DNA of 64,000 bases, taken from the NCBI RefSeq assembly GCF_014701235.1, contig NZ_AP022873.1:1736001-1800000 (forward strand). The letters run 5' to 3'. Below are positions 2,267 to 25,437 of the stretch, in pieces; position 1 is the stretch's first letter; every line of letters starts with the position of its first letter. A program made the position numbers and the translations under genes. The notes beneath the pieces were generated by a model that had not been told where the DNA came from, ran no database searches, and saw only the letters and a list, made by a program, of their open reading frames with translations. This stretch comes from Dissulfurispira thermophila. Its GTDB lineage: Bacteria > Nitrospirota > Thermodesulfovibrionia > Thermodesulfovibrionales > Dissulfurispiraceae.

Positions 2267-2692
2267 TTAGAATTTATTATGGTATGCAGAATAAAGACCT
2301 TTTCGTGCAATGTGGTATTGCCCATTAATTAATCTTCCGTTCACATGAATCGGATAGCAACTACCAATACCTTCAGACAGTTCATCAATTGGTATTATTA
2401 TATTACATGACTTGCATCTCATATATTCTTTATCAAAAGCAAATCCAAGCCCAGAATTAAAACATCTGCGGCACCTATTCAGATAAGCATGTGTCTGCCC
2501 TTTAACCTTGATAACAAAAAATTCAATGGTTGTATCATCTATCTTTGTTTTATAAAAAATAGGTGATTTTTCTGTAAGATTATCAATATTGATAACTACA
2601 TCTTCACCAACTGTTGACGGCTCTAAAAACGAAATCTTCTGAGAGCATGAGATGAGGAATAAAAAAATCGCAAAAAACAAAAAGAGTCTCAT
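2267..2692 (-). CDS. DUF2318 lipoprotein, metal-binding
   Basis: A 141-residue protein with a hydrophobic N-terminus and lipobox (FLISC, Cys16), so probably a periplasm-facing lipoprotein. The mature part carries two CxxC pairs (Cys74/77 in RCRRC, Cys93/96 in RCKSC) and Cys112, the signature of DUF2318 domains. DUF2318 proteins are found with periplasmic iron-uptake systems (for example the Campylobacter p19/ftr1 locus), next to FtsX-like permeases and an ATPase. Here the stop-side gene order is permease, ATPase, DUF2318, with a 4-bp overlap to the ATPase gene, so the three are co-translated. A role in iron handling is inferred from that context; no ftr1 or p19 gene is present here. Confidence 0.8.
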   Translation of the reverse strand: MRLFLFFAIFLFLISCSQKISFLEPSTVGEDVVINIDNLTEKSPIFYKTKIDDTTIEFFVIKVKGQTHAYLNRCRRCFNSGLGFAFDKEYMRCKSCNIIIPIDELSEGIGSCYPIHVNGRLINGQYHIARKGLYSAYHNKF

Positions 2693-23015: not shown

Positions 23016-23282
23016 TTAGCAGCCTTCTATTGCCCTTTTCTTCTTTGCAGGTGCAGCACCCTCTTTTGTTACTACACCGCCTTTAATCTCAACCTTATCA
23101 CCAGCTTTTGCACCAGCGGTGTCTTTAACTGTAACTGTGTGCTCCTTGCCGCTGTCATCTTTTACAGTTATCTTCTTGCCTTCAACTTTTGTAACAGTGC
23201 CTTTTACATCTGCTGCAAAGCTGAGACCGACAACACCGAGAGCAAATACGAGAGCAACTAATAATACAAGAATCTTCTTCAT
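23016..23282 (-). CDS. Small secreted protein, OB-like
   Basis: 88 residues: a clear signal peptide (ILVLLVALVFALGVVGLSFA, cleavage after FAADV), then a short beta-rich segment (VKGTVTKVEGKKITVKDDSG, EHTVTVKDTAGAKAGDKVEI) and a basic tail ending in Cys88. The KGTVTKVEGKKITV pattern resembles small DUF5666/OB-like periplasmic proteins. AGGAGGTGAAATCAA precedes the ATG. It is monocistronic, with its own terminator and an inverted repeat (23345-23363) in the upstream region. Function unknown. Confidence 0.75.
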   Translation of the reverse strand: MKKILVLLVALVFALGVVGLSFAADVKGTVTKVEGKKITVKDDSGKEHTVTVKDTAGAKAGDKVEIKGGVVTKEGAAPAKKKRAIEGC

Positions 23283-23444: not shown

Positions 23445-23473
23445 AAAAAGGGGGACAAAAGTCCCCCCTTTTT
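23445..23473 (-). terminator. Terminator of the DsrEFH-YedE operon
   Basis: GGGGGAC (23450-23456) pairs with GTCCCCC (23461-23467) around AAAA; A- and T-runs flank both sides, so it can work in both directions. It lies just past the extended stop codon (23479-23481), which supports the longer reading frame of the transporter gene. Confidence 0.85.
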
Positions 23474-23478
23474 ATCTA

Positions 23479-24570
23479 CTAATCTTTCATCGGCTTTATA
23501 AACATGAAATAAGTCATTGTCCAGTTACCGAGTATAATAAAAATAGTTGCAACTATACTCTGCAAGGATAATGCTGACATACCTGTCAGCGAATGCCCAA
23601 CAGTTCAACCACCGGCAACTGCGCCGCCAAATCCCATTACAAGTCCTCCTAAAAAGACCCTTACCAACTCATTGGGATCTCTTGGTGCAGTCAGCTTAAA
23701 CTCACCAAGCCCTTTGGAACTTATATAAGCGCCTAAAGGGACACCAACGACATAAAGTGCACTCCATGTTGCTACACCAATGCCTAATATCCTGAACATA
23801 GGATCAAATGGTGCATTACTATTACCAACCAGTATAAACATTAGAAAATCTGACAGGGGACCAGAAAATGACAAGCCCCTTGCCTGTCCACCCCAATAAT
23901 AAGATGCCCACCATGCAAGAATAACCACAACTCCTATTAATGCCCCGCCAACAGACCATGACCATCCTTTTTTGGGACCTTTAGCAAATGGTTTGCCTTT
24001 TAATACTACAGGAATTATTATTGCTGCAATTACAGCAATAACTATCCACTTCACACTCGGACCTCCGAATACATCCCATAATGCCGGACTGGTTATAGCA
24101 TTTTCTCCTTCGCCAAATGAAACCTTATAACTCTTCAAAAACTGACTGATGGGTTTAAGTGGTCCGTGCATTGTAGAAATCAGACCTACACCAAAACCAA
24201 ATGTGGCTATAGTAGCAGCGAATTGCCCCTCGCCTTGCTTATATAAAACACCGCTTCCGCATCCACCAGCCATAACAATACCAAGCCCAAAGACATATCC
24301 GCCAATAATTGCAGCAATGGGGGCAAAAGCCTGACGCCTCAACCCATCATCACCCATAAGTCCAATATCCTCAATTAGGTTGGCACCGATAATAGCAATT
24401 ACGAGTGCCAAAAGCCATGCCCTCAGCAAAGTCATATCATTTACAAAGATCACGTCTCTGAATGCTGAGTTCATTCAATATCTGCCGCGCTGAAGGACAA
24501 AACCAAAAATAACACCAACCAGCACACCACTGAGTATAACCATAATGCTTGCCTGTGGTATTCCCTCCAT
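23479..24570 (-). CDS. YeeE/YedE-family transporter with two in-frame TGA codons, putative selenoprotein
   Basis: ATG 24570 follows AGGAGG. Read continuously to TAG at 23479-23481 the product has 363 residues, nine or so membrane helices, and the complete YeeE/YedE architecture. Two TGA codons interrupt it: codon 32 (24475-24477), in LQRGRY-U-MNSAFRD, and codon 322 (23605-23607), in AVAGG-U-TVGHSLTG. Family members have cysteine at both sites (QRGRFC...SAFRD; GGCTVGHSLTG), and these plus the middle GGCGSG cysteine (Cys104, retained here) are the functional thiols in thiosulfate transporter TsuA. Selenocysteine at both is the simplest reading. A hairpin with loop GGTA follows the second TGA. 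Substrate could be thiosulfate, another sulfane sulfur compound or a selenium species. If not recoded, it is a doubly broken pseudogene. Confidence 0.8.
23573..23590 (-). promoter_or_regulatory. Candidate bacterial SECIS hairpin after the second TGA
   Basis: On the minus strand GCTGACA-GGTA-TGTCAGC is a perfect 7-bp stem whose loop starts with GGT, 15-32 bases after TGA 23605-23607. The formate dehydrogenase fdhF SECIS of E. coli places a GGUC loop about 19-22 bases after its UGA, so both position and loop agree. Confidence 0.6.
24422..24469 (-). promoter_or_regulatory. Weaker candidate SECIS structure after the first TGA
   Basis: On the minus strand CTCAGCA (6-12 bases after TGA) pairs with TGCTGAG (47-53). 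Inside, CAGAG and CTTTG can form a second stem with a 7-base loop ACGTGAT containing GT. The inner stem includes a G-T pair, so this is less convincing than the hairpin at the second TGA. Confidence 0.35.
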
Positions 24571-24614
24571 TTAAACCTCCTATATTGTTTTTTATCAACA
24601 AGCCAAAGGCTTAT

Positions 24615-24782
24615 TTACCATGTCATAACCTTATCTGCATTCTCTATAAGATGCACAATTGTGCTGTAATCTTTACAATCAGTCAAACTTACAACATCTA
24701 CATCATGGTCTTTCTTATGTTCATCGATTATTTTCTTAACACTTTCTTCTGGTAATGTCTTTAATATATGAAGTATTTTCAT
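24615..24782 (-). CDS. DsrH/TusB-like small protein
   Basis: 55 residues, MKILHILKTLPEESVKKIID ... DCKDYSTIVHLIENADKVMTW. The ending DKVxSW/TW and the preceding DYxxxVxLIxxxDKV pattern match DsrH/TusB C-termini, though the protein is shorter than the usual 90-100 residues. It starts 3 bases after the DsrF-like gene stops. As the third member after DsrE- and DsrF-like genes it completes an EFH-type set, which in sulfur-relay complexes forms a hexamer passing persulfide sulfur. Cys36 is the only cysteine and could be the acceptor. 44 bases with AGGAGG separate it from the transporter gene. Confidence 0.65.
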   Translation of the reverse strand: MKILHILKTLPEESVKKIIDEHKKDHDVDVVSLTDCKDYSTIVHLIENADKVMTW

Positions 24783-24785
24783 GGA

Positions 24786-25061
24786 TTAATACGGCAAAAT
24801 ATTATCATATTTTAGAAGTCTTTTTGCAATATCTTCTATTGGAATATACTCTATACCCTCATTTAAAGTCGTATTTGTATATAATCCCAATTTTAACTCC
24901 TTGATCATCTCGAGGTTCAATAAAATATCATCAGATGATTCAAGCCTTCTATCAAAAATATATATATCCACATCATTTAATACTGAAAGTCCTATACTCA
25001 TGCGCAATGCCTCTGATTGCCTATCCCTTACTATGACAGCTATCTTTTTCCTTGCGCCCAT
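24786..25061 (-). CDS. DsrF/TusC-like DsrE-superfamily protein
   Basis: 91 residues with the Rossmann-like start KKIAVIVRDRQSEALRMSIG, then VDIYIFDRRLE and KELKLGLYTNTTLNEGIEYI, the DsrE/DsrF fold order. No cysteine is present, so like many DsrF/TusC subunits it is probably structural. It begins 2 bases after the DsrE-like gene and ends 3 bases before the DsrH-like gene, in one tight operon with the YeeE/YedE transporter. Inferred role: sulfur or selenium trafficking with its partners. Confidence 0.7.
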   Translation of the reverse strand: MGARKKIAVIVRDRQSEALRMSIGLSVLNDVDIYIFDRRLESSDDILLNLEMIKELKLGLYTNTTLNEGIEYIPIEDIAKRLLKYDNILPY

Positions 25062-25063
25062 CT

Positions 25064-25366
25064 TTAAAGTACTATTACTTTATCTGATTCCTTGTTCATA
25101 ACTGCGTTGTCATATTGGCTTCCACATGTAATCCCTTCTGGGGTCTCTTCATCTGAAAGTCCTATCTTCTTTCGATTGAAATCACAAAGGCTCATGGAAA
25201 CACCATCCCTCTCCATAAGGGAAATAATTTTTTTGTCTGTTACCAATCGGCAGCCTTCATCCATGAAAAAAATTAACACCCTATGTCCCTTATTGACTGC
25301 TGTTTCTGTAATGCCAATAATATCGTCTTTATATCTATCTGTGGTAACAAGTATTCCAAGTGTCAT
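25064..25366 (-). CDS. DsrE-family protein
   Basis: 100 residues from ATG 25366 (AGAGGA eight bases upstream; an ATG nine codons earlier is possible). It begins TLGILVTTDRYKDDIIGITE, continues HRVLIFFMDEGCRLV, then MSLCDFNRKKIGL and PEGITCGSQYDNAVM. The three cysteines (in DEGC, SLC and ITC) are conserved in this DsrE-like group, and one is probably the sulfur-carrying residue. It is the first gene of the DsrE-DsrF-DsrH-YedE operon. Partners and the transporter suggest it receives or delivers sulfane sulfur or selenium at the membrane. Confidence 0.78.
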   Translation of the reverse strand: MTLGILVTTDRYKDDIIGITETAVNKGHRVLIFFMDEGCRLVTDKKIISLMERDGVSMSLCDFNRKKIGLSDEETPEGITCGSQYDNAVMNKESDKVIVL

Positions 25367-25437
25367 CTCGATTGTCCTCTGTCTTTGTAGCATAAGGCAG
25401 CAAAAAAAGTAAACCCTAAAGTTGCAAAGGTAATAAA

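Follow-up and report, generated by a model that had tools for sequence, protein, structure and literature searches.

The window analysed here, a stretch of 64,000 nucleotides covering positions 1736001–1800000 of the complete 2,370,875-base genome of Dissulfurispira thermophila, carries a gene for a YeeE/YedE-family protein whose reading frame is interrupted by two TGA codons. Are these codons the stops of a broken gene or sites of selenocysteine (Sec) insertion, and what would a transporter with two selenols carry across the membrane? In the related TsuA of Spirochaeta thermophila (StTsuA), Cys293 (first), Cys91 (second) and Cys22 (third) are lined up perpendicular to the membrane, the third faces TsuB/YeeD, and a hydrogen-bond relay of thiosulfate along the three thiols has been proposed (PMC11073785). 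Here we describe, from comparative sequence and structure-model analysis, what is very probably a double-Sec transporter of the TsuA fold with two selenocysteine insertion elements (SECIS), whose likeliest role is the uptake of thiosulfate or sulfane sulfur.

Frame, fold and thiol positions

Reading through both TGA codons from the ATG at 24570 to the TAG at 23479–23481 gives 363 open residues, with the sequence contexts RYUMNS at codon 32 (site 1) and GGUTVGHS at codon 322 (site 2). A preliminary description had reported a frame open save for these two codons, an AGGAGG before the ATG, a third thiol retained as Cys104 in GGCGSG, a 7-bp hairpin 15 bases past the second TGA and a terminator just beyond the extended stop, and our reading of the minus strand agrees on each point (Table 1); a weaker hairpin past the first TGA had been missed. 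TGA also terminates 12 of the 40 mechanically called open reading frames of at least 200 residues in the window and is thus an ordinary stop there, as the same description had stated. The mechanical open reading frame of the Sec gene itself begins at the ATG directly after the first TGA (Met33).

Table 1. Features of the Sec transporter locus (window positions) and of the unusual tRNA discussed in the text (locus positions).
Feature	Position	Strand	Basis
YeeE/YedE (PF04143) transporter gene of 363 aa, Sec at two in-frame TGA codons	23479..24570	-	PF04143 profile and AlphaFold2 model
TGA codon 32 (U32)	24475..24477	-	aligns with StTsuA Cys22, cytoplasmic 'third cysteine'
TGC codon 104 (Cys104, GGCGSG)	24259..24261	-	aligns with StTsuA Cys91, middle thiol
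TGA codon 322 (U322)	23605..23607	-	aligns with StTsuA Cys293, 'first cysteine', entry
Ribosome-binding site AGGAGG	24576..24581	-	sequence
Putative first SECIS CAGAGA-CGTGA-TCTTTG, 6-bp stem, loop CGUGA	24444..24460	-	base 15 after first TGA
Second SECIS (predicted) GCTGACA-GGTA-TGTCAGC, perfect 7-bp stem	23573..23590	-	base 15 after second TGA; covariation
Intrinsic terminator, strong, 3′ of yeeE gene	23445..23472	-	predicted from sequence
DsrE-like protein, 109 aa, invariant Cys70 (alignment numbering), CGSQ motif	25064..25393	-	weak PF02635, E 0.026
Conserved ORF, 91 aa, middle of upstream trio	24786..25061	-	conservation
ORF, 55 aa, last of upstream trio, ending VMTW	24615..24782	-	conserved order
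Secreted ExtJ-family protein, 88 aa, past terminator	23016..23282	-	NF040942, 76.5 bits (cut-off 52.5)
GCA tRNA, same genome	L002 1237-1363 = genome C1:1469861-1469987		
GCA tRNA, other genomes	L054 2271-2397		
GCA tRNA, other genomes	L055 3589-3715	-	
GCA tRNA, other genomes	L039 1352-1478		
GCA tRNA, other genomes	L058 ~2338-2471		

The 363-residue product matches PF04143 at 245 bits (cut-off 27) over model positions 1–310 of 310. Its AlphaFold2 model (pLDDT 89) resembles StTsuA (6leo, 8k1r), with Foldseek TM scores of 0.83/0.91 against 6leo and about 35% identical residues when the two structures are aligned, and StTsuA was its only match in the PDB. The two proteins share the three functional thiol positions, in line by alignment, together with nearby conserved residues, whereas in D. 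thermophila TGA encodes two of the three thiols and there is no adjacent TsuB/YeeD gene. The scores fall short of the TsuA equivalog cut-offs (255 of 400 bits for NF052577, 163 of 645 bits for NF041049), so thiosulfate is a candidate substrate, and they also fall short of those of the selenium-associated YedE models (48 of 200 bits for TIGR04112, 86 of 350 bits for NF033796). We place the protein in PF04143 and among the bacterial selenoproteins and regard it as a new variant with two Sec residues; we do not count it as a TsuA equivalog.

Exchange of TGA and cysteine among relatives

We searched 296 genomes of the phylum and a denser sample of 176 genomes of the order; those relatives that have names belong to the Nitrospirota, and many to the Thermodesulfovibrionales. 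Full-length homologues that contain two interior TGAs occur in 15 of the 296 phylum genomes, the window's own included, and in 16 genomes of the order sample. Plasmid records gave remote matches only. Full reading of 15 two-TGA genes placed every TGA within RYU(M)N or AGGUTVGH and showed no other interior stop. An alignment of 73 homologues has only three columns in which a thiol is conserved. Of its 363 columns, two of these three hold every one of the 42 interior TGAs found at homologous positions (17 at column 32, 25 at column 322). No homologue that we read has TGA at column 104, the middle thiol, and the 73 are free of interior TAA and TAG and, at all other homologous columns, of TGA. TGA and Cys exchange at exactly the two sites of the D. 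thermophila gene.

Although two stops in one frame usually mark a broken gene, an origin of the TGAs in sequencing error, pseudogene decay or chance has a negligible probability and is refuted by the comparative data: both codons are found in 16 genomes and recur in the assemblies of 15 further species besides the window's, TAA and TAG are absent inside the frame, the stops are confined to thiol columns with no random stops in close relatives, and pN/pS is low over the entire frame. Pooled over the 15 two-TGA genes, pN/pS is 0.20 for codons 1–31, 0.21 just past the first TGA and 0.10 past the second; these low values after both TGAs indicate that the gene is not a pseudogene and that neither codon is a true terminator. 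Reassignment of TGA in the genetic code was likewise rejected, since TGA ends many open reading frames in the window and is the true final stop in three of the 15 genes with two interior TGAs, where it directly follows FIKPM(K/Q)D. Readthrough is therefore context-dependent.

TGA at column 322 only was seen in 16 distinct genes (aligned homologues and further loci), and TGA at column 32 only in two distant homologues, which have Asp at the 322 position. On a tree built without the columns of the two Sec sites there are at least three changes at site 1 and at least eight at site 2. One gene (L105), with Cys at position 32 and TGA at 322, falls within the clade of two-TGA genes; its Cys at site 1 is a reversion. 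The two distant homologues (L066, L067) belong to a PF04143 subfamily with Sec at the first site only (QRGRFU), and they are a separate selenoprotein lineage; in L067, a very strong hairpin (−26 kcal/mol) follows the TGA.

Selenocysteine machinery and the two hairpins

The host genome contains all four genes of the Sec machinery: selA (630 bits), selB (378 bits), selD (327 bits) and a tRNA-Sec gene, selC, with the anticodon TCA. The SelD gene itself has an in-frame TGA at the usual Sec position (AAGUAAK), so UGA serves for Sec elsewhere in this genome. Furthermore, SelA is present in all 25 genomes of the set that have a TGA-form yeeE, and the genomes lacking SelA (6 of 80) have Cys forms only, a distribution that is not significant alone.

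The Sec codons of the yeeE gene are 290 codons apart, each with its own hairpin, whose loop lies about 21–25 nt past the UGA. The second hairpin (z −1.89) is paired in 93% of cells in 29 sequences, with compensatory exchanges at two pairs (G-C/C-G and C-G/U-A); its covariation score is 0.249 versus 0.127 in shuffles, and sliding the partner destroys the pairing. For the first hairpin, the stem is weak by energy alone (z −0.08), and the case for a SECIS rests on a 17-nt block that is nearly invariant in 15 species, in a gene with a median dS above 1.2, and on a single compensatory change, from C-G to U-A, in the stem of L033.

Synonymous identity, measured in 7-codon windows (at least 100 windows; median about 0.41 over the profiled regions), reaches 0.93 right after the first TGA of the two-TGA genes, where it ranks first, and 0.75 right after the second, where it ranks about first. 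The close Cys/Cys paralogues have no comparable peak at either site (0.46 and 0.42). Genes with Cys at site 1 and Sec at site 2 (the C/U class) are also partly conserved synonymously at site 1 (0.74 versus 0.43), and part of the conservation of the first hairpin could therefore have another cause. The hairpins are more stable in Sec genes than in Cys genes (p 2e-6 at site 1 and 5e-15 at site 2, values that ignore shared descent and overstate the significance). Taken from sequence, the yeeE gene would have two SECIS elements, one for each UGA, the first of them putative.

If only the second TGA encoded Sec, translation would start at Met33, behind the first TGA, and the first helix would be missing. 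The sequence TGA-ATG is found in 15 of 15 two-TGA genes, which, like the start of the mechanical frame and the weakness of the first hairpin, fits such a start. However, Met33 is frequent in Cys homologues too, codons 1–31 are under purifying selection behind a good AGGAGG, TGA exchanges with Cys at site 1, the strongest synonymous peak lies just past the first TGA, and the distant subfamily has TGA at site 1 only, with the strong hairpin of L067. We consider a Met33 start very improbable. The preliminary description had proposed that UGA is recoded as Sec at both codons, and the machinery, the TGA/Cys exchange and the constraint on the hairpins agree with that proposal.

Neighbouring genes, paralogues and proposed transport function

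Three small genes lie upstream of the double-Sec transporter, in an order that is the same at seven of 15 two-TGA loci. When the trio was compared with DsrEFH/TusBCD by family and PDB matching, only the 109-residue protein gave a match, a weak DsrE-like one (its top PDB entry is a putative DsrE, at E 0.39); the 91-residue protein had neither a family nor a PDB match, and the 55-residue protein, a DsrH/TusB candidate by its position, had no family match. No TusA/TsuB gene lies beside the transporter, and seven TusA-family genes are found elsewhere in the genome. Beyond the terminator is a gene of the ExtJ family, which is named for a selenite/tellurite reduction operon; no remainder of an ext operon was seen nearby. 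An ExtJ-family gene is near 11 of 15 two-TGA genes and also near Cys-only copies, and it therefore says little about selenium as a substrate.

Two other functions were weighed against sulfur uptake. The protein might act in the membrane as a thiol/selenol redox protein or a sulfur sensor: a YeeE-like SoxT protein has been linked to signal transduction (PMC11582611), and the selenoproteins known so far are for the most part redox enzymes (PMC9312934). Against this, the protein retains the fold of a transporter, three thiol positions in line and the residues that surround them, and we regard a non-transporting role as improbable. A double selenoprotein that carries a selenium or tellurium compound instead of sulfur is somewhat less remote and still unlikely. 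It would accord with the co-occurrence of YedE relatives with selenium genes (PMC5322559) and with the ExtJ-family neighbour, whereas the top family scores and the fold point to TsuA, the selenium-YedE models score far under their cut-offs, ExtJ stands near Cys-only copies too, a DsrE-like gene lies upstream, and deletion of yedE in Methanococcus had no clear selenium-transport phenotype (PMC11097638).

The host genome has two further PF04143 paralogues without TGA, an all-Cys copy (locus L002) and a copy that is 28% identical (locus L003). Directly upstream of the all-Cys paralogue in five genomes is a tRNA of tRNA-Sec shape with the Cys anticodon GCA, U73, CCA and a very long variable arm (Table 1), and in four of these loci (L002, at 2-934, L054, L055 and L039) a LysR-type regulator precedes the tRNA and the paralogue. 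This tRNA was missed by ARAGORN and lies just below the Rfam threshold; a model built from it has strong matches in 18 of 38 genomes, each above 60 bits, and in five of them next to this yeeE. The tRNA is of the selC* tRNA-Cys class, which is already known, Nitrospirae included (PMC7609411). It is possible that Sec and Cys isoforms are switched in response to selenium, in a manner comparable to HrsM of Methanococcus (PMC11097638). The third paralogue (L003 1426-2770; genome ~1966476-1967820) is followed immediately by a TusA gene and in this resembles the YTD clusters linked to sulfur disproportionation.

D. thermophila T55J is the only sulfur-disproportionating Nitrospirota in PMC12998232. 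The YTD clusters of sulfur-disproportionating bacteria described there share with the Sec locus a YedE-type protein, a DsrE-like neighbour and an occurrence in Thermodesulfovibrionales; they hold yedE, tusA, dsrE and hypothetical genes together, whereas here the DsrE-like match is weak and no TusA gene is adjacent. Among selenoproteins, a YeeE/YedE protein with one predicted Sec, WP_012471001.1, is already catalogued with the motif GUxSG (PMC9312934, PMC13188914). It belongs to the same Pfam family and, compared by its catalogued motif only, differs in having one Sec, in a context that RYUMNS and GGUTVGHS do not fit; GUxSG would suit the position of the middle thiol, which reads GCGSG here, or family members of half the size. 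A two-Sec YeeE/YedE protein, of which the preliminary description had known no example, was not found in the accessible portions of the literature on selenoproteins with YeeE, YedE, Sulf_transp or thiosulfate transporter; its novelty holds for the two-Sec form, a single-Sec member having already been listed (PMC13188914). MbdU, the double methyltransferase selenoproteins and ferredoxin-thioredoxin reductase also have at least two Sec residues and two UGAs per message, but they belong to unrelated families and are not listed as membrane transporters.

In the mechanism that we propose, SelB and tRNA-Sec would insert Sec at each UGA, directed by its own SECIS about 15 nt downstream, so that the entry (322) and exit (32) positions would be selenols and the middle position (104) a thiol. 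Judged by homology, thiosulfate or another sulfane-sulfur donor would most likely be taken up, the selenols may speed capture and release by covalent Se–S chemistry, and inside the cell the sulfur would pass to carriers, plausibly including the DsrE-like product of the upstream gene. All three cysteines are essential in SoxT1B according to PMC11582611, in which direct sulfur transfer is set against the hydrogen-bond relay and called questionable, because the thiols are ~7 Å apart, and free sulfide or short polysulfides are offered instead. A gap of this size is also a serious obstacle to passing sulfur directly from Se to S. At neutral pH selenols have largely lost their proton and would donate hydrogen bonds poorly; we infer that selenolates at entry and exit would suit nucleophilic capture and release better than S–H hydrogen bonding. 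Among the homologues, the entry thiol is replaced by Sec often, the exit thiol more rarely and the middle thiol never. We give rather less than even credence to the idea that this pattern reflects a covalent Se–S relay and that YeeE moves sulfur covalently, not by an S–H hydrogen-bond relay.

Natural selenols at the entry and exit positions make the disputed mechanism of the YeeE family, a relay by hydrogen bonds or a covalent transfer of sulfur (PMC11073785, PMC11582611), directly testable by comparison of Sec and Cys forms, with the all-Cys paralogue in the same genome as a natural control. Since standard gene callers yield only a 289-residue piece of the protein, a conserved membrane selenoprotein is probably misannotated. 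The carriers of this two-Sec transporter are groundwater and hot-spring sulfur bacteria.
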